From Sulfuritalea sp. (GTDB lineage Bacteria; Pseudomonadota; Gammaproteobacteria; Burkholderiales; Rhodocyclaceae), in assembly GCF_017302275.1 (NCBI RefSeq), contig NZ_JAFLDR010000043.1:1-32439 (forward strand): a stretch of 32,439 nt of DNA, read 5' to 3'. The notes under the pieces were generated by a model. That model had not been told where the DNA came from and did not search any database. It worked only from the letters and a program-made list of their open reading frames with translations. A program made the position numbers and the translations under genes. This document shows positions 10,981-27,470 of the stretch, piece after piece (the stretch's first letter is position 1; each line of letters opens with the position of its first letter).

Positions 10981-11631
10981 TCAGCTTTCAAGTTGGAAGG
11001 TGATGGGAACCTGGACCCAGCCGGCGATGGCCTGTTCGCCGCGCTTGGCCGGCACGAAGCGCCAGCGGCTGACGGCTTCCTCGGCGGCCTGGTCGAGGCG
11101 GGCGAAGCCGCTGCCGAGCTTGATCTCGACTTTTTCGGCCAACCCGGCGGCGCTGACGAAGACGCGCAGCAGCACCTTGCCCTGCTCGCCGAGGCGGCGA
11201 GAGGCATGCGGATACACCGGCTTGGGGTTGTGCAGGTAGTCGGCATCGAAGCGCGCGGCGGTGATGGCGACCGGTGCCGGTGCGGGCGCGACATCGATCG
11301 GCAGCGCCCTGGGTGGCGCCGGTGGCTGCGGCTGCACGACGAAGGCGGGTGCCGCGTCGCTGACGGCATTCGAGGTCAGCAGCGGCAGAGGCGCCGGTGG
11401 CTGGAGCTTCTTTGGCCTGGGCGGCTCGGGTGGCTTGGGTTTGGGCAGCTCCGGCAGGATTTCGACCAGGCGCACCGCCATCGGCTGGATTGCGGCCTTC
11501 AGTTGCTCGGCCGGCACCACCACCGCGATCAGCGCGATCAGCAGCGCGTGCGCCGCCGCCGCGCCGGTGAAGGACGCAAACGGCCGCTCGGGGCGGCCGG
11601 CGGATGGCAGGCGAGGCAGCAGAAGTCCCAT
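10981..11631 (-). CDS. tonB: TonB energy-transducing protein
   Basis: A 216-residue TonB: an N-terminal membrane helix (about 20-42, ASFTGAAAAHALLIALIAVV), a Pro/Lys-rich periplasmic spacer (KPKPPEPPRPKK and following) and a C-terminal TonB domain. That domain carries YPHASRRLGEQGKVLLRVFV and ends in a beta-strand VPITFQLES. The ATG at 11631 gives a normal-length N-terminus. A GTG at 11703 would add 24 residues of poor quality, so I do not use it. First gene of the TonB-ExbB-ExbD-receptor operon; no convincing promoter is visible upstream. Confidence 0.92.
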   Translation of the reverse strand: MGLLLPRLPSAGRPERPFASFTGAAAAHALLIALIAVVVPAEQLKAAIQPMAVRLVEILPELPKPKPPEPPRPKKLQPPAPLPLLTSNAVSDAAPAFVVQPQPPAPPRALPIDVAPAPAPVAITAARFDADYLHNPKPVYPHASRRLGEQGKVLLRVFVSAAGLAEKVEIKLGSGFARLDQAAEEAVSRWRFVPAKRGEQAIAGWVQVPITFQLES

Positions 11632-11992
11632 GGGTTGCGAGCTATTGCGAAAGGCGCGAAGTGTGTTGCATCGACCGGTACAAAAAGTGCGGCTAATCGC
11701 CACATGCGACGCATTGCCGCGCGACGTGATGTCGCAGCCTCCGGGAATCCGGCGGATTGCTGACCACGATCAAGGAAGCGGCGGAAAGTTGATGCCTGCG
11801 GCACCGCCTGCTTGTGGTTACGCAGGCGTTCTGCCGGCCGCAGCCGGCCGTCCTCAAGGCCCGTCCTCAAGCTCGGATCGCCGTCCCGCCAGCGCCGACT
11901 TTTCTTATGGGCCTCCAGTTGATGAAGAAAATCGACCGGTTGCCGGCAATTTATCATTGCAAAAACGGGAACTGAAATCCATAATTGCAAGC
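11632..11992. other. 361-bp intergenic region between tonB and the second DUF4143 gene
   Basis: A divergent spacer without a convincing gene. It holds a hairpin CGCCTGC (11805-11811) / GCAGGCG (11822-11828) and a GC-rich run GCCGGCCGCAGCCGGCC (about 11833-11849). It also contains one dispersed-repeat copy (11889-11903) and an AT-rich stretch with two ATTGCAA-like words (about 11957 and 11982) just before the ATPase start. The weak frames across it are open by base composition only. I see no clear -35/-10 pair for tonB. Confidence 0.6.
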
Positions 11993-13162
11993 ATGAAACG
12001 TAACCTGACCGCACAATTGCTGGAGGCCATCGACTACTCGCCGGCCGTAGTCCTGCTCGGGCCGCGCCAGTCGGGCAAGACCACGCTGGCCTTGGAGCTT
12101 GCCCGTGAGCGCCCGGCGATCTATCTCGACCTGGAGTCGGAGCAGGACCGCGCCAAGCTGGCGCAGCCGGAACTGTATCTGGCCGACCATCTCGACAAGC
12201 TCGTCATCCTCGACGAAGTTCACCGCGCGCCCGGCCTGTTCCCGGTGCTGCGCGGCCTGATCGACCGCGCCCGGCGCGATGGTCGGCGGGCCGGCCAATA
12301 TCTGCTGCTGGGTTCGGCCTCGCTCGACCTGCTCAAGCAATCCGGCGAAACCCTGGCGGGGCGCGTCGCCTATCTGGAGCTGACGCCCTTCCATGTGCTG
12401 GAGGTCGCCGAGCGACCGCTGGACGAACTCTGGCTGCGCGGCGGGTTTCCCGAAAGCCTGCTGGCCGGGAGCGATGCGCGCAGCCTGCGCTGGCGGCAGG
12501 ATTTCATCCGCAGCTACCTGGAGCGAGACATTCCCCAGTTCGGCCCGAGGATCGCCGCCGAGACGCTGCGGCGGTTCTGGACCATGCTGGCCCATCATCA
12601 GGGTGGATTGCTCAACACGGCCCAGTTCGCGCGCAATCTCGGCGTCGATGTGAAGACCGCCGGCGGCTACCTCGGCCTGCTGGTCGATCTGTTGCTGGTG
12701 CGCCGGCTGCTGCCTTGGCACAGCAATCCAGGCAAACGGCTGGTGAAGTCGCCCAAGGTCTTCATCCGTGACAGCGGCATCGTGCATGCCTTGCTCAACA
12801 TTCCCGACAAGGAAACGCTGCTGGCCCACCCCGTGGTGGGTGCCAGTTGGGAAGGGTTTGCCATCGAGAATCTGCTCGCCAACGCCATGGCGACCGATCC
12901 GATGGTTCAAGCCTGTTTCTACCGCAGTAGCGGCGGGGCGGAGATCGATCTGCTGCTGGCTTGGCCGGACGGCCGCCTCTGGGCCATCGAGATCAAGCGC
13001 AGTCTGGCGCCCAAGCTGGAACGCGGCTTCCATGCCGCCTGCGCCGATCTGAAACCGGAACGGCGCTTTGTCGTCTATCCGGGGGGCGAGCGCTACCGCT
13101 TGGCCGAAGACATCGAGGCCGTGCCACTGCCCCAGTTGGCGAAATCGCTGCGCGGCGGCTGA
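11993..13162 (+). CDS. AAA-family ATPase with DUF4143 domain (second copy)
   Basis: A 389-residue ATPase of the same AAA_14/DUF4143 family as the gene at 3620. It has Walker A GPRQSGKTT (23-31), Walker B LVILDEVHRAP, sensor-like LLLGSASLDLL and a C-terminal nuclease-like core with EIDLLLAW...AIEIKRS. The ATG at 11993 is chosen because the upstream extension is low-complexity and starts inside tonB. The preceding AT-rich DNA contrasts with its surroundings and may carry its promoter. Function unknown; it has no obvious link to the copper and respiratory genes on either side. Two such genes within 9 kb suggest independent acquisitions rather than a tandem duplication, since the proteins differ widely. 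Confidence 0.9.
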   Translation: MKRNLTAQLLEAIDYSPAVVLLGPRQSGKTTLALELARERPAIYLDLESEQDRAKLAQPELYLADHLDKLVILDEVHRAPGLFPVLRGLIDRARRDGRRAGQYLLLGSASLDLLKQSGETLAGRVAYLELTPFHVLEVAERPLDELWLRGGFPESLLAGSDARSLRWRQDFIRSYLERDIPQFGPRIAAETLRRFWTMLAHHQGGLLNTAQFARNLGVDVKTAGGYLGLLVDLLLVRRLLPWHSNPGKRLVKSPKVFIRDSGIVHALLNIPDKETLLAHPVVGASWEGFAIENLLANAMATDPMVQACFYRSSGGAEIDLLLAWPDGRLWAIEIKRSLAPKLERGFHAACADLKPERRFVVYPGGERYRLAEDIEAVPLPQLAKSLRGG

Positions 13163-13347: not shown

Positions 13348-13953
13348 ATGGACCGACGCGACGCCCTCAAACTTTCCCTTCTTGCCGGAGTCGGCTTGGC
13401 CGCCGGTAACGCACAGGCACAAGCGGCCTGCGCCACGGACGGCACGCCGGCGCAGTTCACGCCGAAGAAGCCGGCCGATGCCAATCCGTTGGAGCGCGAG
13501 TTCGAGAAGTATCCGAAGTGTCCCTATTGCGGCATGGACCGCAAGGAACATCATCGCGCGCGCATGCTGGTGCAGTACAGCGACGATCTGACTGATGGCG
13601 TCTGCTCGATCCATTGCCTGGGCCTCAGCCTCGGCGTCAACATCGACCGCGAGCCGAAAATGATCTGGGGCCCCGATTACGGCAGCACCGCCGAGCCGCG
13701 CCCGCTGGTGCCGGTGGAAAAGCTGACCTACCTGATCGGTGCCGACCTCAAGCATGCGATGACCAAGCGCAGCAAGCATTCCTTCGCGGCGAAGGAGGTG
13801 GCCGAGCAGTTCAAGCAGAAGCATGGCGGGGAATTCGGCGACTTCAACGAGGCGCTCAAGCAGTCCTACCTCGACATGGCAGCCGACGTAGCGCAGATCC
13901 GCAAGAACCGCGAGGAGCGCCGCCGGAGAATGATGGAGCAGAAGCAGGGCTAA
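13348..13953 (+). CDS. NosL-family copper-binding protein with TAT signal
   Basis: A 201-residue exported protein. The N-terminus MDRRDALKLSLLAGVGLAA is a twin-arginine-type signal. The mature part has the NosL-type motif CPYCGM (58-63) and a second Cys pair CSIHC (86-90) next to the family's ASIHCL-like segment. NosL is the Cu(I) lipoprotein involved in maturing nitrous-oxide reductase. This version lacks a lipobox and has a long charged C-terminal helix (KNREERRRRMMEQ). AGGAG (13337-13341) lies 6 bases before the ATG. The second NosL gene follows after 10 bp, so the pair is an operon. No nosZ is in the window, so copper delivery to another cuproenzyme is also possible. Confidence 0.85.
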   Translation: MDRRDALKLSLLAGVGLAAGNAQAQAACATDGTPAQFTPKKPADANPLEREFEKYPKCPYCGMDRKEHHRARMLVQYSDDLTDGVCSIHCLGLSLGVNIDREPKMIWGPDYGSTAEPRPLVPVEKLTYLIGADLKHAMTKRSKHSFAAKEVAEQFKQKHGGEFGDFNEALKQSYLDMAADVAQIRKNREERRRRMMEQKQG

Positions 13954-13963
13954 ACTGCTCGCC

Positions 13964-14437
13964 ATGCGTATCCTGCTTTCCTTCCTGCTGGCGATCTGGG
14001 TGGCCGTGGCCGCCGCCCAGGCGCCGCCCAAGCCCGGGCCGAAAGACCTTTGCCCGGTGTGCGGCATGCTGGTCTCGAAGTATCCCAACTGGGTGGCGAC
14101 CATCGTGTACAAGGATGGCCATGCCCACCATTTCGACGGCGCCAAGGACATGTTCAAGTTCTGGCACGATCCGGCGAAATACGCCGCCGGCCATCGGCGC
14201 GAGGACATGGTGGCGATCTGGGTCACCGATTTTTATGGCCTCGCGCGCATCGACGCGAAGAAGGCGTTCTACGTCACGGGCTCCGACGTGCTCGGCCCGA
14301 TGGGGCACGAATTCCTGCCATTGGCGAATCGCGCCGACGCCGAGGAGTTCCTCAAGGACCACAAGGGCCGCCGCATACTGGGCTTCGAGCAGGTGCTACG
14401 CGGCATGCCGGAGCAGCTTGACGACGGGCGCTTCTGA
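13964..14437 (+). CDS. NosL-family protein (second copy)
   Basis: A 157-residue exported protein with a signal peptide (about 1-19) and the NosL motif CPVCGM (Cys30, Cys33). The family's characteristic YKDGHAHHFDGAKDMFKF region is next, followed by TDFYGLARIDAKKAFYVTGSD, also typical of NosL. It is probably a periplasmic Cu(I) carrier. It lies 10 bp downstream of the first NosL-like gene and differs strongly from it, so the two may hand copper on rather than be redundant. The cytochrome c/d1 gene begins 93 bp later on the same strand. Confidence 0.87.
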   Translation: MRILLSFLLAIWVAVAAAQAPPKPGPKDLCPVCGMLVSKYPNWVATIVYKDGHAHHFDGAKDMFKFWHDPAKYAAGHRREDMVAIWVTDFYGLARIDAKKAFYVTGSDVLGPMGHEFLPLANRADAEEFLKDHKGRRILGFEQVLRGMPEQLDDGRF

Positions 14438-14530: not shown

Positions 14531-16123
14531 ATGAATACCACGCTGATTTGCCGCCTTGCGTTCCTCGCGTCCGCGCTTTGCGCCATTGCGCTGCCGGCCG
14601 CCGCCGTCGATGCGCCCGCCCTCTACCAGCAGCACTGCGCCGCCTGCCATGGTCCCGGGCGGCTCGGCCTGACCGGCCCGGCCCTGCTGCCGGAAAGCCT
14701 CGCGCGCCTGCGCAAGCCCGAAGCCGTCAAGGTCATCACCGAAGGCCGTGTGGCAACCCAGATGCTGGGCTTTGCCGACCGCATGAACAAGGAAGAGGTC
14801 GCCGCGCTGAGCGATTACATCTACACCGCCGTGTCGCCAGCGCCGACTCTCAGCGAAGCCGACATCCGCGCTTCGCGTATCGTCAGTTTCGCGCCGGGCA
14901 GCCTGCCGGGCAAACCCGCCGAGGCGTTCAAGGGCGTGGACATGATGAACTTGTTCATCGTGGTCGAGACCGGTGACCACCACATCACGGTGCTCGACGG
15001 CGACAGGCTGGAACCCATCCACCGCTTTCCCAGCCGCTATGCGCTGCACGGCGGCCCGAAGTTCACTCCGGACGGGCGCTACGTATTCTTCGCCTCGCGC
15101 GACGGCTGGATCACCAAGTTCGACATCTGGAACCTCAAGGTGGTGGCAGAGATCCGCGCCGGCATCAACACACGCAACGTCGCCGTCTCGGGCGACGGCA
15201 AGTACCTGGCGGTGGCCAATTACCTGCCGCATACCCTGGTGCTGCTCGATGCCGACCTCAACCTGCTCAAGGTGCATCCGGTGCGCGGGCGCGACGGCAA
15301 GGAGACTTCCCGGGTTTCGGCGGTGTACGACGCGGCGCCGCGGCAGAGTTTCGTCGCCGCGCTGAAGGACGTGCCCGAGGTCTGGGAGGTCAGCTACAAC
15401 CCGAAGGCCGAGGACATCCCCGGCGGCATCATCCACGACTTCCAGTACAAGGAAGGTGCCTTCATCCCCGGCTTCCTCAATGTGCGGCGCACGATGCTGT
15501 CCGAACCGCTGGACGACTTCTTCTTCACCCAGGACTACTCGACCCTGATGGGCGCCTCGCGCACCGCCGGCCAGGGCCAGGTGGTACACCTCGACGTGCG
15601 CAAGAAGATCGCCGACCTCAAATTGCCGGGCATGCCCCACCTCGGTTCCGGCATCACCTGGAAATACGCCCCGCCGGGCGGGACGGAGCGGACGGTGATG
15701 GCCACGCCGAATCTCAAGGAGGGCCTGGTCACGGTGATCGATCTCAACGACTGGAGCACGGTAAAGAGCATCCCGACGCTGGGCCCCGGCTTCTTCATGC
15801 GCAGCCATGAGAACACGCCCTACGCCTGGACCGATTCGATGATGTCCAAGGCCAAGGACACGCTGCAGGTGATCGACAAGCGCACGCTGGAAAGGGTCGC
15901 CGAAGTGAAGACCGACCCGGGCAAGACCCTGGCCCACGTCGAATTCACCCGCGACGGCAAGCACCTGCTGGCCAGCCTGTGGGAACGCAAGGCCGACGGC
16001 GGCGCGCTGATCGTGTTCGACGCCGCAACGTTCAAGGAAGTCAAGCGCATCCCGATGGACAAGCCGGTGGGCAAGTACAACCTGCACAACAAGATCAGCC
16101 GTTCGGAAGGCACCAGCCACTGA
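14531..16123 (+). CDS. Cytochrome c / d1-type beta-propeller protein (NirN/NirF-like, not a nitrite reductase)
   Basis: A 530-residue periplasmic protein: a signal peptide (1-25), an N-terminal cytochrome c domain with CAACH (36-40) and a C-terminal eight-bladed cytochrome d1-type propeller. A His in RYALHGG aligns with the proximal d1-heme ligand of NirS. The SHEHPEF segment that holds distal catalytic His in NirS reads ALKDVPEV here. The later LHDGG segment is also not conserved (DDFFFTQD). The C-terminus GKYNLHNK is typical of the superfamily. I therefore read it as a d1-family heme-carrying, electron-transfer or biogenesis protein like NirN/NirF rather than an active cd1 nitrite reductase. 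The linker after the cytochrome domain contains SPAPTL, encoded by the dispersed repeat. It follows the two NosL genes. Confidence 0.85.
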   Translation: MNTTLICRLAFLASALCAIALPAAAVDAPALYQQHCAACHGPGRLGLTGPALLPESLARLRKPEAVKVITEGRVATQMLGFADRMNKEEVAALSDYIYTAVSPAPTLSEADIRASRIVSFAPGSLPGKPAEAFKGVDMMNLFIVVETGDHHITVLDGDRLEPIHRFPSRYALHGGPKFTPDGRYVFFASRDGWITKFDIWNLKVVAEIRAGINTRNVAVSGDGKYLAVANYLPHTLVLLDADLNLLKVHPVRGRDGKETSRVSAVYDAAPRQSFVAALKDVPEVWEVSYNPKAEDIPGGIIHDFQYKEGAFIPGFLNVRRTMLSEPLDDFFFTQDYSTLMGASRTAGQGQVVHLDVRKKIADLKLPGMPHLGSGITWKYAPPGGTERTVMATPNLKEGLVTVIDLNDWSTVKSIPTLGPGFFMRSHENTPYAWTDSMMSKAKDTLQVIDKRTLERVAEVKTDPGKTLAHVEFTRDGKHLLASLWERKADGGALIVFDAATFKEVKRIPMDKPVGKYNLHNKISRSEGTSH

Positions 16124-17151: not shown

Positions 17152-17733
17152 TCATTTGCCGGCGAGCAGCAGTTTGAGGTCGGCGGCGACATTCGCCGGC
17201 GTCTCGCCATGGCGCAGCAGCAGGCGAAGCTTGCCCTGCGGGTCGAAGGCGTAGCTCCCGGTCGAGTGGTCAACGCTGTAGCTGTCGGGCGTCTTGCCCG
17301 GTTGCTTGACGTAGAAGACCTTGAAGTCCTTGGCCGTCGCGGCGATGACTTCGTCGCTGCCGCGCAGGCCGAGGAAGGAGGGATGGAAGCTCGGCACATA
17401 CTGGGCTAGCAATGCCTGCGTGTCGCGCGCCGGGTCGACGGTGGCGAACAGCACCTGCACGCGCTTGCCGTCCTCACCGAGCAGGGTCATGGCCTCGCGC
17501 ATGGTCGACAGCGTGGTCGGGCAGACGTCGGGGCATTGCGTGTAGCCGAAGAACAGCACCACGGCCTTGCCGCGAAAGTCGGCGAGGCTGCGCGCCTGGC
17601 CGTTGTGGTCGGTGAGCTTGAAGTCCTTGCCCCAATCGACCATGGACAGATCGGTGGAGACGAATTTACGCGGTTCGCTGCATCCGGCAGCCAGCAGCGC
17701 GAGGGCGAGGAACAGAGCCGACAGGAGTTTCAT
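17152..17733 (-). CDS. SCO1/SenC-family copper chaperone, lipoprotein
   Basis: A 193-residue lipoprotein (lipobox LAAGC, Cys18) with a thioredoxin-like SCO domain. The copper ligands are CPDVC (Cys67, Cys71) and His155 in VDHSTG. SCO proteins deliver copper to, or reduce, the CuA site of oxidases. The gene is divergent from the orphan heme-copper subunit I (start 17828), with a shared 94-bp spacer. On its strand a -10-like TACACT (about 17768-17773) lies upstream. A second, membrane-anchored SCO protein occurs at 23345. Confidence 0.93.
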   Translation of the reverse strand: MKLLSALFLALALLAAGCSEPRKFVSTDLSMVDWGKDFKLTDHNGQARSLADFRGKAVVLFFGYTQCPDVCPTTLSTMREAMTLLGEDGKRVQVLFATVDPARDTQALLAQYVPSFHPSFLGLRGSDEVIAATAKDFKVFYVKQPGKTPDSYSVDHSTGSYAFDPQGKLRLLLRHGETPANVAADLKLLLAGK

Positions 17734-17827
17734 GGCGGGCACGGGAAAATATCCGGGGCGGGGTGCTAGTGTAACCTCTCCGCCCTCCAAGCTTGCCGTA
17801 TACTTCTTATATTTTCGCGGGACAATA

Positions 17828-19168
17828 GTGAATTCGCATATCATCGAGGTCGCCCCGGGGGCGCCGCAAAAGCTCGCCCGCGCCTGGCTGTGGATGGGGC
17901 TAATGGCCCTCATCGGCTCCGGCCTGCTGGCCATCCTGCTGGTTCTGTCGCGCACGCCGGGCATCCAGGATGTCTTTCCGCTGAAGGGTTTCTTCCGTGC
18001 CGCGCTGGTGGTGCATGTCGACCTCTCGGTGGCGATCTGGTTCATGGCCTTCGCCGCCGTGATCTGGAGCGCGCTGGGGCGCGCCGCCCACGCCTGGCTG
18101 GGCTGGGCAGGGCTGGGGCTGGCGGCGCTGGGCACGGCGCTGATGACCGTCTCGCCCTTCCTGCCCGGCGCCGAGCCGGTACTCAACAACTACATCCCGG
18201 TGTTGCAGCAGCCCTTCTTCCATGCCTCGCTGTGGATTTGCGGCGCGGGCTTCGCGCTGGCGGTGCTGCGCGCCCTGCTTACCACCTGGCCGCGCCCGGC
18301 GTTCGGCGCGCCGCTGCAAACCGGCGCCTTCCTCGGCGCTGTGGCGGCCTTCCTGGCGCTGGGCGCCTTCATCTGGTCGTTCCTGATCGTGCCGCGCTCG
18401 CCGGAGATCGAGGACAAGCTGTATTTCGAAGTCCTGTTCTGGGGCGGCGGGCATACCCTGCAATTCCAGCACGCGCTGCTGATGGTGGTGGCCTGGCTGT
18501 GGATAGGCTCCGCGCTGGGCAAGGGCATGGACGATACGCCGCGCGCGCTGTCGGCGATGTTCTGGATCGCTGCGCTGCCCTTGCTGGTGGTGCCGGCGAT
18601 CTACCTGACCATCCCCGCCGGCGAACTGCCGCACATGGAGCTCTTCGCCAAGCTGATGATCTGGGGCCACCCCTACATGGCGCCGCTGATCCTGGCCGGC
18701 CTGCTGGCGCTGTGGGCGGTGCGCGGCGCGCCGGCAAGCGGGGCGAAATCCGCCTTTGTCGCGTCGTTCGTCCTGTTTGCCACGGGTGGCGTGCTGGGCT
18801 ACATGATCCAGGGCGCCAACGTGGTGATTCCGGCGCACTACCACGGCTCGACAGTGGGCGTGACACTGGCCTTCATGGGCCTGGCCTACGTGCTGCTCCC
18901 GCGACTCGGTTACGGCGAGGTCGATGGCGCCATGGCGCGCTGGCAGCCCTACGTGTACGGCGGCGGCCAGCTGATCCACATCCTCGGCCTGGCCTGGTCG
19001 GGCGGCTACGGCGTACAGCGCAAGGTGGCGGGCGCCGAACAGGCGCTGACCACGCTGCCGCAGAAAATCGGCATGGGCATGATGGGCGCCGGCGGCCTGA
19101 TCGCCGTGATCGGCGGCATCATGTTCGTGCTGGTGCTGCTCAGGCTGATGCTGAAGAAGCGCGGCTGA
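17828..19168 (+). CDS. Divergent heme-copper oxidase subunit I-like protein (cbb3/NOR-like), orphan
   Basis: A 446-residue polytopic protein with about 12 membrane helices. His63 in VVHVDLSVAIWF would bind the low-spin heme. His209 in FWGGGHTLQFQH sits where the first CuB/FeB ligand is in other family members. His337 and His339 in PAHYHGSTVG match the two heme ligands of the late helix. The expected His-His pair of the active site is not obvious; the nearest candidates are His269 (followed by Met) and His281 in WGHPY. There is no His-x3-Tyr, so it is unlikely to be a standard oxygen reductase. It is annotated cbb3-like by general resemblance, and nitric-oxide reduction is possible. It starts with GTG at 17828; a longer frame reaching into the SCO gene is not credible. 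No subunit II is adjacent. Confidence 0.8.
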   Translation: MNSHIIEVAPGAPQKLARAWLWMGLMALIGSGLLAILLVLSRTPGIQDVFPLKGFFRAALVVHVDLSVAIWFMAFAAVIWSALGRAAHAWLGWAGLGLAALGTALMTVSPFLPGAEPVLNNYIPVLQQPFFHASLWICGAGFALAVLRALLTTWPRPAFGAPLQTGAFLGAVAAFLALGAFIWSFLIVPRSPEIEDKLYFEVLFWGGGHTLQFQHALLMVVAWLWIGSALGKGMDDTPRALSAMFWIAALPLLVVPAIYLTIPAGELPHMELFAKLMIWGHPYMAPLILAGLLALWAVRGAPASGAKSAFVASFVLFATGGVLGYMIQGANVVIPAHYHGSTVGVTLAFMGLAYVLLPRLGYGEVDGAMARWQPYVYGGGQLIHILGLAWSGGYGVQRKVAGAEQALTTLPQKIGMGMMGAGGLIAVIGGIMFVLVLLRLMLKKRG

Positions 19169-19271: not shown

Positions 19272-21185
19272 CTACTTTTTCGGCTGGAAGGCCATCGAGC
19301 GCGCCGAGATGGTGAAGGCATCGGAAAAGCACATGCCTTCCTCGGCACCCTGGTTCTTCAGCGAGGGGAAGATCGCCTCGACCATCTTCACCGAGCCGCA
19401 GGCGTAGATCTCCTTGCCGGCGAGGTCGGGGAAATCGGCCAGGATGGCTTCGTGTACCAGGCCTGTGCGGCCGTTCCAGTTGTCTTCCGGCGCAGCATCC
19501 GACAGCACCGGGATGAAGTGGAAGTTCTCGTGATCCCTTGCCCACCGTTGCGGCAGGTCCGGCAGATACAGGTCGGCCAGTCTGCGTACCCCCCAGTACA
19601 GGTGAATAGGACGCTTGAGGCCGCGATGGAAGGCATCCTCGACCATGCTCTTGACCGGGGCGAAGCCAGTGGCACCGGCGACGAAGACGATCGGACGCTC
19701 GGATTCGCGCAAGGAGAAATCACCAAGCGGGCCTTCGAAGCGCACGACATCGTCTTCCTTCATGTGTTCGAACACATGGGTGGTAAAGCGGCCGCCCGGC
19801 ATCAGGCGAATCTGCAGTTCGATCAGGTCGGGCTGATGCGGCGGATTGGCGAAGGAGAAGGCGCGCCGCTGGCCGTCGTCGAGGATGATGTTGATGTACT
19901 GTCCGGCCTTGAACGGGATTTGTTGCCCCAGAGGCAATTTGAGCATGACACGCATCACGTCGTGGGTGAGTTTCTCCATGGTCACCACGCGGGCGCTGTA
20001 TTCGCGAATCGCGGAGGGAACGGCCGACGTTTCGTATTCGATCTCGACATCGCCCAGTGCCGTGGCGCAGCACAGCAGCACCTTGCCTGCCGCGCGCTCC
20101 TCGGCCGACAGTGCGCTCGGCTGATACAGGCCGGGATCGACATTTCCGCTGAGCACGGTGCATTTGCAGTTGCCGCAGCCGCCGTTGCGGCATTCGTAAG
20201 GCAGGTTGATGTCATGGCGCAGGCCGGCATCGAGCAGGGTTTCGTCGAAGCGGATGGCGACGGTCTTGTGATCCGGGTGGAAGGTGACGACGGCTTCGGC
20301 CGGGGCCTCACCCATGCGCTTGGGCGGCAGCCAGGGCGCGAGGAAGAGCAGCAGGGTGAAGCCGATCATGCCGAACCACAGCTTCATCGGGTCGACCCAA
20401 TACACCAGCGCCAGGGTCGGCATCTGGAACCAGTCGATCTGGATGTTGGTCGGCACCACCAGCATGTCGGCTTCGCCGCCCTGGCTGACGACCGGCTTCA
20501 CAAGTGACAGCACGATGAACATCAGGGTGAAGGCGATGGCGATTTCCCGTGGCGGATTGATGTGGGCCCGCGGCACGCGCTGCACATGCACCCAGGCCAG
20601 TACGCCGGCGATCAGCGGCGCGCCGATGTGGACGAATGCCAGCAGCGTGAACAGCCGGCTGTTGACGTTTTCCTGGTAGATGAAGTTGCGGATCAGGGTG
20701 CCGTTGAACATCGGCAGCACGTCGAACCATTCGGCCGTGGCGATGACGACGAATTGCGCCAGCTTGTCCCAGACCAGCATGAAGCCGTTGAGGCCGGAGA
20801 TGTACACCAGCCAGATCAGCGCCACGCCGATGGCCCAGGAAAACCAGCGGAAGCCGCGGTAGCGATCGTAGGCGAAGTGGCGCAGCATGTGCAGCAGCAT
20901 GGTCAGGATCATGCCGTCGGTGGCGTAGCGGTGCACGCTGCGCATGATGCCGCCGGCCCACCACTGATTGTGGGTGATGCGCTCGACCGACTGGTAGGCG
21001 TCGTGTACCCCGGTTTCGGCGAAGATATACAAATACAGGCCGGTGCCGATCAGCAGCCAGAATTGCCAGAAACTGATGGTGCCGAGGTGATAGAAGGGGT
21101 TCAGCTTTTCGCCGAAGGCGAGATTGAACACGTTCTCGAAGCGCATGAAGAACCAGCGCACGAGGGATTGGATGAGTTTTAGCAT
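19272..21185 (-). CDS. Fusion protein: bc1-type cytochrome b + [2Fe-2S] ferredoxin + FAD/NAD(P)H reductase
   Basis: A 637-residue membrane protein with three modules. Residues 1-285 are a cytochrome b N-terminal domain with b-heme ligands His85/His99 and His186/His200 at the canonical 14-residue spacing. Residues about 295-390 are a plant-type ferredoxin: CRNGGCGNC (Cys332, 337, 340) and Cys372. The rest is a ferredoxin-NADP reductase-like module with RAFSFAN (441-447, FAD), GATGFAP (504-510, NAD(P) site) and YACGS near 594. It should move electrons between NAD(P)H and a quinone or heme partner at the membrane. It starts with ATG 14 bp downstream of the small protein gene. The hydrophobic part resembles that of the 21702 gene closely enough to be paralogous. 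I know of no characterised enzyme with this architecture. Confidence 0.9.
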   Translation of the reverse strand: MLKLIQSLVRWFFMRFENVFNLAFGEKLNPFYHLGTISFWQFWLLIGTGLYLYIFAETGVHDAYQSVERITHNQWWAGGIMRSVHRYATDGMILTMLLHMLRHFAYDRYRGFRWFSWAIGVALIWLVYISGLNGFMLVWDKLAQFVVIATAEWFDVLPMFNGTLIRNFIYQENVNSRLFTLLAFVHIGAPLIAGVLAWVHVQRVPRAHINPPREIAIAFTLMFIVLSLVKPVVSQGGEADMLVVPTNIQIDWFQMPTLALVYWVDPMKLWFGMIGFTLLLFLAPWLPPKRMGEAPAEAVVTFHPDHKTVAIRFDETLLDAGLRHDINLPYECRNGGCGNCKCTVLSGNVDPGLYQPSALSAEERAAGKVLLCCATALGDVEIEYETSAVPSAIREYSARVVTMEKLTHDVMRVMLKLPLGQQIPFKAGQYINIILDDGQRRAFSFANPPHQPDLIELQIRLMPGGRFTTHVFEHMKEDDVVRFEGPLGDFSLRESERPIVFVAGATGFAPVKSMVEDAFHRGLKRPIHLYWGVRRLADLYLPDLPQRWARDHENFHFIPVLSDAAPEDNWNGRTGLVHEAILADFPDLAGKEIYACGSVKMVEAIFPSLKNQGAEEGMCFSDAFTISARSMAFQPKK

Positions 21186-21199
21186 GGTCGTGGTCGGCG

Positions 21200-21709
21200 T
21201 CAGTTCTTGGCCTGGCGGAAGAACAGACCGCCTTGGTCGGGGTTGAAATCGATCACCAGCACCTGCGCCGGCTTCAATGTGATTTGCTCTTCCTTGACGA
21301 AGTTGTAGCCGGGATTGACCAGGTTGTCGTTCATCCTGGCGGCGAGCTTGTAGGTGCCGGCTTTCAGTTCGAAGCGCTTGAATACCGTGCCGACGCCGTC
21401 GCGCGAAAGGCCGGTGGGGTGCATGATGACCTCATAGAGGGGCTTGTCGTCGAGTTCCAGGACGATCTTGGTGTCCGAACGGCCGCGCGGGCAATCCAGC
21501 GGCGCGCGCATGTTGGGCGGCAGCTTGGCGAGTTCCTCGGCCGTGCGCTTGCGGCATTCGCGTCCGCCGAGGTGGCTCATGGACAGCTTGACCAGGGCCA
21601 CGTCGTCCGGAATCTGCTTGTAGATCGGATTGGTCGAAAAGTAACCGATGAAGGCGGCAAAGGCGCCGTAAAGCACGATTTGCCCGATGATGGCAGCGGG
21701 TTTAGCCAT
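21200..21709 (-). CDS. Conserved-looking single-TM protein between the two cytochrome b fusions
   Basis: A 169-residue protein with one N-terminal membrane helix (about residues 5-24) and a beta-rich extracytoplasmic domain. A Cys pair, GGREC and LDCPRG, is separated by about 20 residues. The C-terminal half (KPLYEVIMHPTGLSRDG, AGTYKLAARMND) looks like a small Ig/cupredoxin-like or accessory domain, but I do not recognise it. Its first 8 bp overlap the end of the upstream cytochrome b gene (21702-21709) and it lies 14 bp before the next one. It is probably an obligate subunit of the same complex. Confidence 0.8.
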   Translation of the reverse strand: MAKPAAIIGQIVLYGAFAAFIGYFSTNPIYKQIPDDVALVKLSMSHLGGRECRKRTAEELAKLPPNMRAPLDCPRGRSDTKIVLELDDKPLYEVIMHPTGLSRDGVGTVFKRFELKAGTYKLAARMNDNLVNPGYNFVKEEQITLKPAQVLVIDFNPDQGGLFFRQAKN

Positions 21710-23261
21710 GGTGTTGGGTTCTCCGGGTAAAGGCGGGAATCTTGCTATGTGTTTCAGGCGTGGTTTCGAGTCGGCGGCGGAATTCGGCTACCACGGTGGC
21801 GAGCTTGCTGTCTTCGCCGCGCGCGACGGGGACGATTTCAATGCGATCGAGCGGCACCAACTGGCGCAGATTCGGTTCGCGGCGCCGCGTCAGGCGTTCG
21901 CGGGTCCATTCCATGCCGAGGCGGAATTCGCAGCCGCCATCGCGGCAGCCGGCCACCACCACGCCGTCGGCCCCGCTGCGCAGGGCGTATTCGATGAAGG
22001 ATGGCGGCAGCATGCCGGCGCAGATCAGGCTGATGGCGACCGTGTCGGTGCCGGCCAACGGTCGCACGTCCGCAGCCTGGTCGCAGCCGAAAACCACCAG
22101 CCGGTGGCGCCCGGTCAGCTTCGCCAGGCCGGTTTCGAGCTGCTGGCGCATCACGTCGACGGGCTGCTGAGGCATGTCGATGCCGGTGACCAGGGTTTGC
22201 TGGCTGCGGAAAGGCGTCGACGATGGGCAGGAGCCGGCGCAAATCCCGCAGCCGGCGCAGAGGTCGGCGTCGACGATGGCGATCTGATGGCCGCGCTTGT
22301 CCGGGTGCGGCGCCATGGTGATGGCCTCGTAGGGGCAATCGACGTGGCAGCGGCTACAGCCATTGCAGTTGGGCGCATCGACCACGGCGATGTCCTGGCG
22401 TGCCGGGTGGGGCAGGAAGGGCAGGGCAAAGAGCAGGATGGTGACACCGAAGATCAGGGCCCACACGGCGGCGGGCGACGTCAGGTCGGTCAGCGGATGG
22501 AGGAACAGGATGAACCAGTCCAAGCGCAGGCCGGTGGCCACCACCGCGAGATCGGCCGGGGCTTCCGACACGGCGGGCTTGACGGCGGCCAGCAGCAGGA
22601 AGGCCGCCAATGTCGCCAGCATGACGCGACGCGACGGCAGGTAGTCCACCCGGCTGATGCGATTGACGTGGGCCCAGAGGCCGAGCAGCAGCATCAGCGG
22701 CACGCCGATGTGGATGAACACCAGCACCGTGAAGAAGCGGTCGTTGATCAAGTCGGGGGCGAGGAAATTGCGCGCCGTGGCGCCGTTGAACAGCGGCAGC
22801 CAGTCAAGCAACTCGGTGGTGGCCACCGCCGAGAACTGCGCCAGCCGGTCCCAGACTATCCAGTAGCCGCCGATGCCGGAAATGAAAACCAGCCAGATCA
22901 GCGGCACGCCGGTGACCCACGAGTAAAGGCGGAAGCCATGGTAGCGCCCGTAGGCCCACTCGCGCAGCAGGTGCAGGAACATCACCAGGACGAAGGCATC
23001 CGAGGCGTAGCGATGCAGGCTGCGCATCACGCCGCCGAGATACCACTGTTCCCGGGTCAGCCAGTCGATCGAGTTGTAGACGCCGTCGATGCTGGTGTCG
23101 AGCACGGTGTAGAGATAGAGACCGCTGACGACGAGGATCCAGAGGAAAAACAGGCCGAGCGCGCCAAGATGACGCAGGGGATTATCCGCGCCACCGAAAG
23201 CACCGTCGAAGGCGATCTCGGTGCGCTCGAAAACGCTGCGCGTTGCGGCAAGCAAACTCAC
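21702..23261 (-). CDS. Fusion protein: bc1-type cytochrome b + 2x[4Fe-4S] ferredoxin + MvhD-like domain
   Basis: A 519-residue membrane protein. Residues 1-285 are a cytochrome b domain with His83/His97 and His184/His198 as heme ligands. Residues about 290-350 hold two [4Fe-4S] motifs, CNGCSRCHVDC (299-309) and CAGCGICAGSC (335-345). Residues about 385-485 are like the delta subunit of methyl-viologen-reducing hydrogenase (MvhD), with Cys393, Cys414 and GCRDGGC (Cys439, Cys444) for a [2Fe-2S] cluster. In methanogens MvhD carries electrons to heterodisulfide reductase. Here it is fused to a quinone-type cytochrome b. The gene is preceded by an FNR-like box and a -10 element and begins a three-gene set with the other fusion. 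Function is unknown; a quinone/iron-sulfur electron gate is inferred. Confidence 0.9.
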   Translation of the reverse strand: MSLLAATRSVFERTEIAFDGAFGGADNPLRHLGALGLFFLWILVVSGLYLYTVLDTSIDGVYNSIDWLTREQWYLGGVMRSLHRYASDAFVLVMFLHLLREWAYGRYHGFRLYSWVTGVPLIWLVFISGIGGYWIVWDRLAQFSAVATTELLDWLPLFNGATARNFLAPDLINDRFFTVLVFIHIGVPLMLLLGLWAHVNRISRVDYLPSRRVMLATLAAFLLLAAVKPAVSEAPADLAVVATGLRLDWFILFLHPLTDLTSPAAVWALIFGVTILLFALPFLPHPARQDIAVVDAPNCNGCSRCHVDCPYEAITMAPHPDKRGHQIAIVDADLCAGCGICAGSCPSSTPFRSQQTLVTGIDMPQQPVDVMRQQLETGLAKLTGRHRLVVFGCDQAADVRPLAGTDTVAISLICAGMLPPSFIEYALRSGADGVVVAGCRDGGCEFRLGMEWTRERLTRRREPNLRQLVPLDRIEIVPVARGEDSKLATVVAEFRRRLETTPETHSKIPAFTRRTQHHG

Positions 23262-23306: not shown

Positions 23307-23348
23307 ATGATATTCGGCTCGGCGATTTTTTGAATTGACTCTTATCAA
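23307..23348 (-). promoter_or_regulatory. FNR/Dnr/NnrR-type box with -10 for the cytochrome b genes
   Basis: TTGACTCTTATCAA (23335-23348) matches the FNR/CRP-family consensus TTGAT-N4-ATCAA at all but one position and is symmetric as TTGA-N6-TCAA. On the minus strand a -10-like TATCAT lies at 23307-23312. If transcription starts near 23300, the box centre falls at about -41.5, the class II activator position. The box overlaps the stop codon of the SCO gene. The first cytochrome b gene starts at 23261. Confidence 0.6.
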
Positions 23349-24214
23349 CCGGATCGAATCCCGCTGGAGTCGGTCTTGCGGGTGAAGCTCCAGGCGACCC
23401 AGCCGAGAAAAAAGAGGAAGCTGATGAAGCCTGCAATCTCAAAATAGAGTGCGTAGTTGGTGCGGTAGCGCCCGGTCAGCGGGTCATACACGGAGCAGAT
23501 GATGCGCAGACGGTCGGCGAGTTCCTCGATGGTGCTGGTCTGTGGCGGCAGCGGCGCGCCGGTGACCATGCGCTTTAGCGGTTCGGCGATGTCCTCGGCG
23601 GTGAAGCTCTCGCCATACACCTGGCGCACGATGCGACCTTCGGCATCGACAAACGTGACCTGGTTGAGATGGTCGAAGCCGGCGGTGGTGGTGGCGTAGC
23701 TGAACCCAAAATCGGCGGTCAGCTCACCGACGATGGCGGCCGCCGGGCTGAGGAACTCCCAGTTGGGCAGGTTGATGCCGTGCTGATGGGAGAACGCCTT
23801 CAATGCCTCGGGCGAGTCGAAGGGCTGGTTGAAGCCGATGCTGACGATGTGAAAGCGGTTGGCGCCGAGCATGGCGACGGTGTTTTCGACCGCCTTCTGC
23901 AGGTTGCGCGTGGTGGTCGGGCAGACCTGGAAGCAGGCGGTGTAAATGAAATTGACCAGCAGCGGTTTGCCCTTGTAGTCGGCCAGGCGCACGGGTTTGC
24001 CGCGTCGGTCGAGCAGGACGTGGTCGCCGATCTGGCGGCCGATGGCGGCCTGCGATCGCTCGTAGGCGATCTTGTTGTCCAACGTAGTCAGCACGAGGCC
24101 GCTACGGTCGCCCTGCGGCACGGCCGCCATTGGCGCCGCCGTGGTACCGGCGCCGACTTTGGCGGCAAGCAGCAAGAACGCGACCGCGAGTGCAGAGCGG
24201 ATCGGGAAACGCAT
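23345..24214 (-). CDS. SCO-family protein with C-terminal membrane anchor
   Basis: A 289-residue SCO/SenC-like protein with a signal or anchor at residues 1-22. The SCO domain has TACFQVCP (Cys94, Cys98) and His182 in GFDHLNQV. A C-terminal extension ends in a membrane helix (about 262-282, ALYFEIAGFISFLFFLGWV). The extra helix and the wider loop around the Cys pair distinguish it from the SCO at 17152. It should serve the CuA site of the adjacent subunit II. It lies 14 bp after the heme O synthase gene. The plus-strand sequence CCGGCGCCGACTTT at 24147 near its N-terminus resembles the dispersed repeat. Confidence 0.9.
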   Translation of the reverse strand: MRFPIRSALAVAFLLLAAKVGAGTTAAPMAAVPQGDRSGLVLTTLDNKIAYERSQAAIGRQIGDHVLLDRRGKPVRLADYKGKPLLVNFIYTACFQVCPTTTRNLQKAVENTVAMLGANRFHIVSIGFNQPFDSPEALKAFSHQHGINLPNWEFLSPAAAIVGELTADFGFSYATTTAGFDHLNQVTFVDAEGRIVRQVYGESFTAEDIAEPLKRMVTGAPLPPQTSTIEELADRLRIICSVYDPLTGRYRTNYALYFEIAGFISFLFFLGWVAWSFTRKTDSSGIRSG

Positions 24215-24228
24215 GGCAACGAGCCCGG

Positions 24229-25113
24229 CTAGAAGCGGGCGTCTATGATCGCCGTGGCGAGCACCAGCGTCAACTGCGCCAGCGAGGAATGGAAGCAGGC
24301 CATCGCCGTGCCGCGGCCCGGGTCCCGCGCGAGGCGCCAAGCCTTCTGGATGAAAAGCGCGCCGCCCAGGGCGGCCCCGGCGAAGTAGATAATGCCCAGG
24401 CCGAAGAACAGCGGCACGAAGGTGGCAGCGACCAGAACCAGGGTGCTGGCGAATATGGCCTGTGCCGCGCGCGCATCGCCGACCACCACCGGCAGCATGG
24501 GTACGCCGGCGGCAGCGTAGTCGTCGCGATAGGCGATGGCCAGACTCCAGAAGTGGGGTGGCGTCCACAGGAACAGCACGAAAGCCAGCGCCAGCGGTAC
24601 GGCACCCACCTGCGGTTCGGCGGCGGTGGCGCCGGCCAGCACGGCCCAACTGCCGGCGAGCCCGCCGAAGACGATGTTGAGCCAGGTGCGGCGCTTGAGC
24701 CAGACGGTATAGACAATGGCGTAGAAAAAAGCGCCAAGGAAGGTGAACAGCGCGGCCCAGGCGTTCAGTGCCATCCAGGCGGCAGCCACGGAGACCGCCA
24801 TCAGACCGAAGATCACCACCAGCCAGATCGGGCCATGCTTGACCTCGCCGGTGGCGAAAGGGCGATTCTTGGTGCGCGACATCAGCGGATCGGTGTCGTG
24901 CTCGTAGTATTGGTTGAAGGCGCCGGCACTGGCCGAGGAAACCAGTACCGCGAGGGTCAGGATGACGAGTTGCATCGCGCTCAAGCTGGGACCGGAGCTG
25001 ACGGCCAAGCCGGCCAGCGCGGTAAAGGTGATGACCACGCCGATACGCAACTTGAAAACTCCGGCGATGGTGCGGAAGCCGATTCCGGAAGGCTTGGGCA
25101 GCGTCTTTTCCAT
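24229..25113 (-). CDS. cyoE: Protoheme IX farnesyltransferase (heme O synthase)
   Basis: A 294-residue UbiA-superfamily prenyltransferase with about nine helices. It has NQYYEHDTDPLMSRTKNRP, which carries the Asp-rich prenyl-diphosphate site, a loop YTVWLKRRTWLNIVFGG and the segment LWTPPHFWSLA, all characteristic of CtaB/CyoE. It makes heme O from heme B for the heme-copper enzyme encoded just upstream. No heme A synthase gene (ctaA) is in this window, so the enzyme may carry heme O or B, or heme A may be made elsewhere. It lies 109 bp after subunit I, separated by a strong stem-loop. Confidence 0.94.
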   Translation of the reverse strand: MEKTLPKPSGIGFRTIAGVFKLRIGVVITFTALAGLAVSSGPSLSAMQLVILTLAVLVSSASAGAFNQYYEHDTDPLMSRTKNRPFATGEVKHGPIWLVVIFGLMAVSVAAAWMALNAWAALFTFLGAFFYAIVYTVWLKRRTWLNIVFGGLAGSWAVLAGATAAEPQVGAVPLALAFVLFLWTPPHFWSLAIAYRDDYAAAGVPMLPVVVGDARAAQAIFASTLVLVAATFVPLFFGLGIIYFAGAALGGALFIQKAWRLARDPGRGTAMACFHSSLAQLTLVLATAIIDARF

Positions 25114-25222: not shown

Positions 25223-26917
25223 TCAGCTCAGACCCCAGACTTCGGACAGGTACTTCCAGTTCACGAAGTAGTAGAGGACGAAGCAGACCAGGAGGGTCAT
25301 GGCCAGCACCACCGTGCCCGGAACCGAGACATGGTCGTGGCTGCCGGTGCCCGAGGCGTGAGCCGCCAGGGACTGGTCGGGGATCGGCGTCGGCTTGTCG
25401 GAGACCGGGCCGCCGTCGAGCTTCTTGCCGAACAACAGGGACCAGACGACGAGGAAGATCCACAGGCCGCCGCCGATGACCGCGATCACGCCGAAGATGC
25501 CGGTGAGACCCATCATCAGGTAGGCGGCGCCCGGCCACTCATACTGGAAGGGCGCGCCGGAGAAGGCCATGTCCCAATGGCGACGGGAGACGCCGAGGGT
25601 GCCGGCGCCCATCATCACCAGGCCGAGTACCGACATGCTGATGCCGAACAGGTAGGGCTGGATCTGGCACAGCTTGGGGAACATCATCTCGCGACGGAAC
25701 AGGGTCGGCACCAGCAGGTAGGTGACGGCCATGAACGCCAGCGTGGTGCCGGTGACTACCGTGGTGTGGAAGTGACCCGGCACGTAGAAGGTGTTGTGCA
25801 TCAGCATGTTGATCTGCTCGGTACCGAGCACGACACCGGAGATGCCGCCGAGGAAACCGAAGCTGACCAGCGAGATGAACATGCCCGAGAACACCGGGTT
25901 GCCCCAGGGCGCCTTGCGCAGCCACTCGAACAGGCCGTTGGTCAGGCCTTTCTTGCGCTGGGCGGCTTCGATCGCGCCCGGAACCGTGAAGCCGTGGATC
26001 ATCGAGGCCATCACCGCGAAGTACATGAAGTAGGAGGTGTTGAGCACCTTCCACTCCGCGCTCATGCCCGGGTCGGACAGCAGGTGGTGGGCCGAGGCCA
26101 GTTGCAGGAACAGGATGTAGAGCAGGAAGGCGAAGCGCGACACCTTTTCCGAAAGCGGCTTGGCGCCGAAGACCACGGCGGCGATCAGGTACCAGATCGA
26201 GACGTGGGCAGCGACGTTGATCTGCTGCGAGGAGTGACCCAGCGCCCACCAGACCATGCGATACAACTGGGCATCGACTTCCTTGATCAGGCCAACCGAC
26301 CAGAGCAAGGTCGGCAGCAGGATGCCGGCGCCGGCCAGGATCGTGAACACGGCGATGATTGCCGCCGTCAGGGCGCCGAAGGTTACCAGCGGAATCGATC
26401 CGGTGTAGGTCTTGTCGCGCCTGGCCACCACCAGCGTGCCGAAGAACACGCCGCAGCCGATCAGGGCGCCCACCGCGAACAGGATGATGCCGAGGTAGAA
26501 GTGGGGTGCGGCCATCATCGGCACGTAGGAGGTGAACATCACGCTCGACTCGCCCTGGAAGATGGCGACGTTGGTCATGATGCTGCCCACCACCATCAGC
26601 CAGAAGGCGGCCCAGGCGACCTTGGGCGTCGCCAGCCGGCAGCGCAGCAGCGTCGATGAGGCGAAGTAGAGCACCGCGATCTCGAAGAAGATGATCCAGA
26701 AGATCAGCATGTCGACGCCATGCACCGTCAGGATCATGTAGAACTGGTCGGCCGGCAGCAGCTTGATCGCCGGCCAGCGGGTGAGGATCACCAGCAGGGC
26801 GGTGATGCCGCCCACCAGCAGCCAGAGGACGCCGGCTACGGCATTCCAGCGCATCAGCTTGTCGGCTTCGAGTTCGAATTGAAGCCCGGTGCGCGGACAG
26901 GTACGGTATTGAGCCAT
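25223..26917 (-). CDS. Heme-copper enzyme subunit I (B-family-related; NO-reductase-like, lacks cross-link Tyr)
   Basis: A 564-residue catalytic subunit with 13-14 helices. Ligands are clear: His66 (TVHGVDML) and His384 for low-spin heme, His382 for high-spin heme (GHFHTT), and His228, His277 and His278 (SAHHLLSDPG) for CuB. In A- and B-family oxygen reductases the fourth residue after the first CuB His is the cross-linked Tyr (HPEVY/HPIVY). Here the segment is HSSQQ, giving Gln232. Tyr loss is characteristic of nitric-oxide-reducing members, and the overall sequence is like the CuA-containing eNOR type as I recall it. An oxygen reductase role is not excluded. It lies 13 bp after subunit II. 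It could be annotated ba3/bo3 subunit 1 by homology. Confidence 0.85.
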   Translation of the reverse strand: MAQYRTCPRTGLQFELEADKLMRWNAVAGVLWLLVGGITALLVILTRWPAIKLLPADQFYMILTVHGVDMLIFWIIFFEIAVLYFASSTLLRCRLATPKVAWAAFWLMVVGSIMTNVAIFQGESSVMFTSYVPMMAAPHFYLGIILFAVGALIGCGVFFGTLVVARRDKTYTGSIPLVTFGALTAAIIAVFTILAGAGILLPTLLWSVGLIKEVDAQLYRMVWWALGHSSQQINVAAHVSIWYLIAAVVFGAKPLSEKVSRFAFLLYILFLQLASAHHLLSDPGMSAEWKVLNTSYFMYFAVMASMIHGFTVPGAIEAAQRKKGLTNGLFEWLRKAPWGNPVFSGMFISLVSFGFLGGISGVVLGTEQINMLMHNTFYVPGHFHTTVVTGTTLAFMAVTYLLVPTLFRREMMFPKLCQIQPYLFGISMSVLGLVMMGAGTLGVSRRHWDMAFSGAPFQYEWPGAAYLMMGLTGIFGVIAVIGGGLWIFLVVWSLLFGKKLDGGPVSDKPTPIPDQSLAAHASGTGSHDHVSVPGTVVLAMTLLVCFVLYYFVNWKYLSEVWGLS

Positions 26918-26930
26918 CTCGGTGTCCCCT

Positions 26931-27470
26931 TTATTTCACGTAAATACGGCCGAGCATCGAGTGGTGCCCGATGCCGCAGAATTCATTGCAGACGATGGAG
27001 TAGGTGCCGGCCTTGGTCGGGGTCATCTTGACCACGTGTTCATAGCCGGGAATGACCTGGATATTGATGTTGGTCGGCTGCAAGGAAAAGCCATGGTTGT
27101 AATCCACCGAGGAGAGGTGGATCTTGTAGGTCTTGCCGGCTTCCAGCTCCAGGATCGGATACCAGGCCCACAGACGCGCCAGCAGGAAGGCCTCGCCCTT
27201 GGCATTCGGCTTGGCGACCGGAATCTGCTGCTCGGTCTCGGTGCGGATGGTGTTTTCCTTGACGAAGGCTTCCGTCTTGGCGGTGAACATTTCCGTGGTG
27301 GTCTTGTACACCTCGTTGGAAAGGTTCTGTTTGCCATTGACGTGCCAGTAAATCATCATGACGAACATGATCATGCCCCAGACGAAGGCAATACCGATCC
27401 AGACCCATTCTTGGCCGGAAATCGGCGTTTTCCACCACAACCTATCTGACGGCGGCAGGATTGCGCTCAT
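26931..27470 (-). CDS. CuA-containing subunit II
   Basis: A 179-residue protein with one N-terminal membrane helix (about 22-43) and a periplasmic cupredoxin domain. The CuA site is complete: His126 (DYNHGF), Cys161, Cys165, His169 and Met172 in CNEFCGIGHHSM. It takes electrons from a cytochrome c or cupredoxin and passes them to subunit I. The single helix and small size are typical of B-family-related enzymes (ba3-like). It lies 13 bp ahead of subunit I and 30 bp after the small subunit. Confidence 0.93.
   Translation of the reverse strand: MSAILPPSDRLWWKTPISGQEWVWIGIAFVWGMIMFVMMIYWHVNGKQNLSNEVYKTTTEMFTAKTEAFVKENTIRTETEQQIPVAKPNAKGEAFLLARLWAWYPILELEAGKTYKIHLSSVDYNHGFSLQPTNINIQVIPGYEHVVKMTPTKAGTYSIVCNEFCGIGHHSMLGRIYVK

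Follow-up and report, generated by a model that had tools for sequence, protein, structure and literature searches.

Two cytochromes b with different redox arms encoded beside a predicted eNOR-type nitric oxide reductase in Sulfuritalea sp.: a candidate electron-entry module

What could be the role of two adjacent cytochromes b that carry different redox arms and are encoded next to a haem-copper enzyme? The question is raised by three minus-strand genes of Sulfuritalea sp. (assembly GCF_017302275.1). They are found on contig NZ_JAFLDR010000043.1, which has an entire length of 32,439 bases (hereafter the window) and belongs to a genome of 4.4 Mb. The trio consists of a cytochrome b with an NAD(P)H reductase arm (19272–21185), a small protein with a single transmembrane (TM) segment (21200–21709) and a second cytochrome b ending in iron-sulfur and FlpD domains (21702–23261). 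In an earlier note on this DNA, the two cytochromes were proposed to form a heterodimer linking NAD(P)H, quinone and a low-potential Fe-S carrier. The comparisons presented here point to another partner. The trio is predicted to be the tail of the operon of an eNOR-type nitric oxide (NO) reductase, and we see about even chances that it functions as an NAD(P)H/Fe-S electron-entry module for NO reduction by this enzyme.

The trio and the operon upstream of it

Pfam and homologue alignments agree with the earlier description of two adjacent cytochromes b, each with four haem ligands and with a different arm. The NAD(P)H-armed protein (Cytochrome_B, Fer2, FAD_binding_6 and NAD_binding_1) is a dihaem cytochrome b with a [2Fe-2S]-FAD-NAD(P)H reductase arm. 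The FlpD-armed protein (Cytochrome_B, 4Fe-4S dicluster and FlpD) is a six-helix dihaem cytochrome b with a C-terminal 2x[4Fe-4S] and MvhD-like arm. The single-TM protein is present between them, as had been noted. It comprises 169 residues, including two invariant cysteines (C52 and C73), and gave no match in Pfam or NCBIfam at E 0.01. The FlpD-armed and small-protein genes share 8 bases, and a gap of only 14 bases precedes the NAD(P)H-armed gene. In the alignments, the rows of which, like those of the trees described below, are length-filtered or subsets of the homologues, the haem histidines are invariant in both cytochromes: H85, H99, H186 and H200 in 75 of 75 homologues of the NAD(P)H-armed protein, and H83, H97, H184 and H198 in 97 of 97 homologues of its FlpD-armed sister. 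The [2Fe-2S] cysteines are kept in all 75, the eight [4Fe-4S] and four FlpD cysteines in all 97, and the two cysteines of the small protein in 99 of 99. Since the ligands are invariant across 75 to 97 homologues, a chance order of domains was ruled out.

Both proteins share with the cytochromes b of bc1 and b6f complexes the four haem-ligand histidines on helices B and D. However, they have no helices G and H, no Rieske protein and no cytochrome c1, xDWF replaces PEWY, and the arm follows helix F. The P[ED]W[YF] motif was found anywhere in only 1 of 75 NAD(P)H-armed and 1 of 97 FlpD-armed proteins. An invariant DW stands at the PEWY place, as assigned from the structural range of a fold comparison and by eye. 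The bc1 quinone-pocket segments (cd and ef regions) are present, with a nearly invariant WD and the invariant DW. That no Rieske protein or cytochrome c1 accompanies the trio, as the earlier note had stated, holds for the 24 open reading frames (ORFs) of the window that were scanned (the ORF of a P-type ATPase, for example, lies outside this set). A separate full-length bc1-like cytochrome b is encoded on another contig of the same genome. Filing the proteins under bc1 was ruled out, given that they have no PEWY/PDWY Qo motif and no Rieske or cytochrome c1/f gene alongside. A place among NOX or ferric reductases was also ruled out because the membrane part has no ferric reductase-like (FRD) domain: this family was not among the Pfam matches at E 0.01, and the membrane part corresponds to PF00033/PF13631. 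Profiles of the Sulfolobus SoxC and ExtP families gave weak to moderate matches to the haem domain, all far under the family cut-offs. We know of no such arms in these two families; SoxC also stands with a haem-copper oxidase.

The arms themselves are of known kinds. The reductase arm has the same Fer2-FAD-NAD order as BenC/MmoC-type reductases (best E 2.2e-59, under the family cut-off; solved relatives 5ogx and 1krh), but it is fused to a membrane cytochrome b and does not serve an oxygenase. Queried on its own against 369 genomes sampled evenly across the class, this arm found matches in 329, mostly generic Fer2-FNR reductases and not the fusion. The FlpD arm matches HdrA2 (572–771) and MvhD chains, and is thus of the kind seen in Hdr/Mvh and QmoB-type proteins. 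In contrast to Hdr/Mvh, it is fused to a bc-type cytochrome b and has no HdrA flavin domain: a search for the HdrA FAD domain in the FlpD-armed protein found none, the match being confined to the C-terminal ferredoxin-FlpD part. The model of this protein (mean pLDDT 79.6, pTM 0.73) was used for the fold search.

Four genes lie upstream of the trio on the same strand; like the convergent HCOb gene described below, they go unnamed in the earlier note. In order of transcription, these encode HCO2 (26931–27470), a cupredoxin with the CuA motif CxxxCxxxHxxM and a COX2 Pfam match; HCO1 (25223–26917), a haem-copper catalytic subunit (COX1, E 1.2e-64); the haem O synthase CtaB/CyoE (24229–25113; UbiA, E 1.8e-52); and the copper chaperone SCO1/SenC (23345–24214, start placed by eye from the ORF; SCO1-SenC, E 7.7e-14). 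CtaB is placed between HCO1 and SCO1 in many related operons and is missing from others. The oxidase form of haem-copper subunit I has the motif H-x-x-x-Y. HCO1 has H-S-S-Q-Q instead, HxxQQ is found in 80 of 80 homologues, and the CuA motif of subunit II is found in 85 of 85. Replacement of the cross-link Tyr by Gln in subunit I is the criterion for eNOR given in section 2.7.1 of PMC8756737, the part of that paper covered here. The Sulfuritalea enzyme shares with the published eNOR both this Gln and the cupredoxin subunit II gene adjoining that of subunit I. By these sequence features, HCO1/HCO2 is assigned as an eNOR-type NO reductase. With this Gln signature and with SCO1, CtaB, HCO1 and HCO2 upstream on the same strand, the trio is therefore predicted to be the tail of the eNOR operon.

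Co-occurrence, linkage and origins

In the class sample, the FlpD-armed cytochrome b was found in 34 of the 369 genomes, eNOR subunit I in 33, and both in 32 (Fisher p 1.4e-42, for genomes that are not independent of each other). The two genomes with the cytochrome only are G215, which is 77% complete and whose contig stops in SCO1, and G259, whose eNOR gene is severed by a contig end. Of 36 class loci, 33 have the small protein adjoining the FlpD-armed gene in the same orientation; of the remaining three, two are severed by contig ends and one is the separate NAD(P)H-armed locus of G082. In a sample of the phylum, 33 of 299 genomes, the window genome included, have the FlpD-armed protein. A plasmid of the alpha-proteobacterium Defluviimonas has the order HCO2-HCO1-CtaB-SCO1-cytochrome b-small protein. 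A hemerythrin gene directly follows the cytochrome b and small protein on this plasmid (L174, 14098–14502, plus strand).

The second cytochrome b is much less widespread. With up to four candidates scored per genome, a clear one was found in 4 of the 34 class genomes that encode the FlpD-armed protein, i.e. the window genome, G342 (where the gene is severed by a contig end), G082 and G156, and three of these four are NAD(P)H-armed. As the FlpD-armed protein is mostly found without a second cytochrome b (30 of 34), a combination of two different arms is not obligatory. We take the FlpD-armed cytochrome b to be the central partner of eNOR and its NAD(P)H-armed sister to be an optional addition. 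Within the genus of the window genome, 23 of 25 genomes, the window genome included, have a complete or, in some cases, partial match to the NAD(P)H-armed protein.

Where the NAD(P)H-armed gene is present, it is closely tied to the other two. Among the best 80 of at least 547 relatives, 79 have the FNR arm, the exception being L159. Sixty-five of the 80 loci are 12 kb or longer; the small protein is present in all 65 of these, the FlpD-armed protein in 64 and eNOR in 58. The only one without the FlpD-armed gene, again L159, starts at a contig edge. Loci shorter than 12 kb, of which 10 of 15 do not have the FlpD-armed gene, are short contig pieces and were excluded from this count. Seven of the longer loci are without eNOR: L080, L143 and L159 are severed by contig ends, and L093–L096 belong to Accumulibacter. 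Gene order varies in at least four ways among the best 80 loci, with the genes remaining together. Viewed from the NAD(P)H-armed side, the two cytochrome genes are thus a conserved joint unit, as earlier proposed, and are not routinely apart. Some members of the NAD(P)H-armed clade are altered. The one in L159 (1588–2454, plus strand) stops after the haem domain and is armless, and the reading frame seems to be broken in L118 and L129.

Five Accumulibacter genomes (L093–L096 and the shorter L100) separate the parts of the operon. In these, the trio is together without eNOR, and eNOR is found elsewhere with CtaB and SCO1 in 5 of 5. eNOR keeps its assembly factors, and the trio is relocated as one block. 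The loci of the Accumulibacter genomes with a split eNOR operon are L093–L096, L100 and L168–L173.

In an exploratory comparison of distances over 51 loci, with eNOR distances removed, the two haem domains correlate at 0.53. This is near the values for the two halves of one protein (0.64 and 0.57) and higher than those for the small protein (0.40 and 0.30). These values favour coupled haem domains, and they may reflect shared transfer.

The NAD(P)H-armed proteins fall into a single group (98/99) when 83 haem domains are placed in a maximum-likelihood tree, and they do so again in a second tree of 46 rows from which the distant outgroup was removed (100/100). The first tree has one distant bc1 sequence with a very long branch as its outgroup, which leaves the root, and with it the question of which arm came first, weakly placed. 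A second kind of pair is found in four genomes of one family (L206–L209), which have two FlpD-armed cytochromes b in tandem. These eight sequences cluster together (100/99), and within the cluster each of the two copies has a branch of its own (94/95 and 92/82). In L207, the only long contig of the four, the tandem copies lie within an eNOR operon with HSTQQ in subunit I. A third kind is seen in G156, where a further cytochrome b copy of 846 amino acids carries flavodoxin, FAD and NAD(P)H domains as its arm. Over 288 residues of the haem domain this copy is identical to the FlpD-armed one, and the two copies, both on the minus strand of L065 (2975–5512 and 10019–11536), are about 5 kb apart. 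This pair could be the result of a very recent copy or arm swap, of gene conversion, or of an assembly error. Judged from the sequences, cytochrome b pairs have at least two, and probably three, separate origins. An NAD(P)H-type arm is carried by a copy in two of these three kinds of pair.

Electron entry and alternative roles

How could such a module work? Both cytochromes b appear to retain the bc1 helices A to F and two b haems spanning the membrane. Because the arm follows helix F, a bc1-like topology would place it on the cytoplasmic side. The FlpD-armed subunit, presumably the ancestral one, would be reduced by a low-potential donor in the cytoplasm. A second copy, present in some Rhodocyclales and Burkholderiales, would have acquired the NAD(P)H-flavin-[2Fe-2S] arm, allowing NAD(P)H to feed the same module. 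Electrons would go onward to the quinone pool, or across the membrane to eNOR, and NO would be reduced to N2O. In this scheme we infer the direction of electron flow, the ancestral copy, the pairing of the two proteins as a heterodimer, the cytoplasmic arm and the delivery to quinone or eNOR. A cytoplasmic low-potential pool is plausible, since the window genome has other HdrA/QmoB-like proteins with FlpD. On its contigs C12 (L215) and C65 (L214) are found a QmoB/HdrA2-like protein with a C-terminal ferredoxin and FlpD, and an HdrA-like protein adjoining an MvhD-like one (named by reading).

Several observations weigh against an electron-entry role. The CuA motif of HCO2 is complete, which means that eNOR could take its electrons straight from an ordinary cytochrome c. 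G264, which is 97% complete, is a true exception with eNOR and without the FlpD-armed cytochrome b. For the eNOR of Thermus and of Thermomicrobium (one record each, about 44% identical, HGAQQ), no cytochrome b was found within 7 kb, in contrast to the window eNOR with its dihaem cytochrome b module; eNOR can thus work without it. In L127, the NAD(P)H-armed protein is accompanied by a decayed-looking cytochrome b fragment at the FlpD-armed place, possibly another true exception. On a 2.86 Mb contig of G082, the eNOR cluster lies at 0.25 Mb and the NAD(P)H-armed gene at 2.18 Mb. As a trait, the NAD(P)H-armed protein is also patchy, found in 1 of 16 other genomes of the same order, and its model is poor (mean pLDDT 62, pTM 0.40) and was kept out of the fold search.

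The NAD(P)H-armed half has probably been described before, as a cytochrome b/b6 of Ca. Accumulibacter that was called unusual. Garcia Martin is said to have reported, in 2006, that a cytochrome b/b6 of this bacterium is joined to domains binding flavin and NAD(P). In the haem domain, 11 of the 12 Accumulibacter-titled loci among the best 80 are 77–80% identical to the NAD(P)H-armed protein, and the remaining one, L118, is 60% identical. In each of four Accumulibacter genomes, PF00033 has three matches and no more at E 1e-5. These correspond by length and position to bc1, the FlpD-armed and the NAD(P)H-armed protein, and the last is the only reductase-armed one. The statement of the earlier note that no enzyme with this architecture was known to have been described therefore goes too far for the NAD(P)H-armed half, the Accumulibacter cytochrome b/b6 being in print (PMC9041414). 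In the parts covered here, that paper presents it as a device for an anaerobic tricarboxylic acid (TCA) cycle and says nothing on the FlpD-armed sister, the small protein or eNOR. The covered part of PMC2289847 speaks of "a novel cytochrome" of Accumulibacter. For the trio, or a cytochrome b together with eNOR, no mention was found in the literature covered, to which the main eNOR survey and one comparative Accumulibacter paper do not belong. What is new here is a variant combining known kinds, an eNOR operon and a bc-type cytochrome b, and likely a re-reading of a published Accumulibacter protein.

This history suggests a role in central metabolism. The NAD(P)H-armed cytochrome b could be a quinol:NAD(P)+ (or NAD(P)H:quinone) oxidoreductase that reoxidises quinol, so that succinate dehydrogenase runs forward without external acceptor, its link with eNOR being incidental. 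According to the same part of PMC9041414, which refers to Garcia Martin (2006), the unusual cytochrome b/b6 lets succinate dehydrogenase work anaerobically; the three PF00033 matches fit this identification, and the trio is apart from eNOR in the five Accumulibacter genomes mentioned above. We nevertheless consider this role unlikely. eNOR is present in 7 of 7 Accumulibacter genomes tested, and the only class genomes with the cytochrome and without an eNOR match are the incomplete G215 and the gene-severed G259. The FlpD-armed partner would be unaccounted for, and the uphill step from quinol to NAD(P)+ would have to be driven by an energy source, of which the architecture gives no sign. The association with eNOR could also reflect a function in assembly, in which the cytochromes b, like a ferric or cupric reductase, would reduce copper or the cysteines of SCO1 or of the small protein for eNOR maturation. 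The operon shared with SCO1 and CtaB, the two invariant cysteines of the small protein and the NosL-like genes within the window are in line with such a function. However, in the Accumulibacter splits it is the trio that departs, and a 2x[4Fe-4S]-FlpD arm is, from general knowledge, elaborate for such a task. We regard this role as quite improbable, and an electron-entry module fits better than an assembly factor, because CtaB and SCO1 remain with eNOR when the cluster is split.

The arrangement first proposed, an obligate heterodimer of both cytochromes b that bifurcates or confurcates electrons among NAD(P)H, quinone and a low-potential Fe-S carrier, finds some support in the joint inheritance of the trio (64 of 65 loci, moving as a unit), in the repeated origin of pairs and their correlated distances, and in the quinone-pocket segments with their WD and DW. 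A two-armed dimer would also form easily in G156, where one haem domain bears two arms. Yet a pair cannot be obligatory if 30 of 34 class genomes have no second cytochrome b found, and different arms are not required in the family that pairs two FlpD arms. With no Rieske-like acceptor, and with P[ED]W[YF] replaced by xDWF in nearly all homologues, bc1-like bifurcation at quinone is unlikely, and we hold the obligate heterodimer to be very doubtful. A broader version, in which a six-helix, Rieske-free dimer of two different armed cytochrome b subunits, with the invariant Asp-Trp at the PEWY place, would be a new class of quinone-linked energy converter joining NAD(P)H, a low-potential Fe-S carrier and quinone, and would power or energise NO reduction by eNOR, appears improbable.

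The proposed electron-entry module would be of importance for NO reduction. No description of the electron supply of eNOR in proteobacteria was found in the literature searched, and a dihaem cytochrome b with a cytoplasmic-type Fe-S arm, found in 32 of the 33 sampled class genomes with eNOR, is a concrete candidate for it. As the Accumulibacter cytochrome b/b6 very probably belongs with an NO reductase cluster, its proposed role in the anaerobic TCA cycle deserves re-testing. In the part of PMC6446978 that was covered, UBA5574 is listed among the Accumulibacter genomes without Nor, and a "ba3" oxidase is described in Accumulibacter. The UBA5574 genome (L096, G372) does have an eNOR subunit I with HSSQQ (at L161), and the "ba3" gene may be this eNOR. 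The presence of this gene in UBA5574 bears on the NO and N2O release predicted in wastewater biology.

Neighbouring genes

Convergent with the trio is the gene for HCOb (17735–19168, plus strand, start uncertain), a divergent haem-copper-oxidase-like membrane protein (COX1, E 1.2e-9) that is conserved in eNOR clusters. In many relatives this gene is located directly 3' of the small-protein gene, and in L093 it is still near the trio. H94, H240, H368, H370 and H415 are invariant in 64 rows. A His-His pair is expected for CuB; it is absent from its usual place in HCOb, and HH occurs anywhere in just 7 of the 64. A sequence search at E 0.01 gave no solved relative. HCOb may be a haem-only subunit. 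Beside it, on the minus strand, is a second SCO1-like copper chaperone (17152–17733), named by reading alone.

Further genes are encoded on the plus strand. A protein with cytochrome c and cd1-type matches in Pfam (14531–16123) and two NosL-like proteins (13354–13953 and 13964–14437) are found beside the cluster; NosL has a reputation for copper handling. An AAA_14/DUF4143 ATPase is encoded at 3620–4843, and the ORF at 11261–13162 looks, by reading, like a second one.

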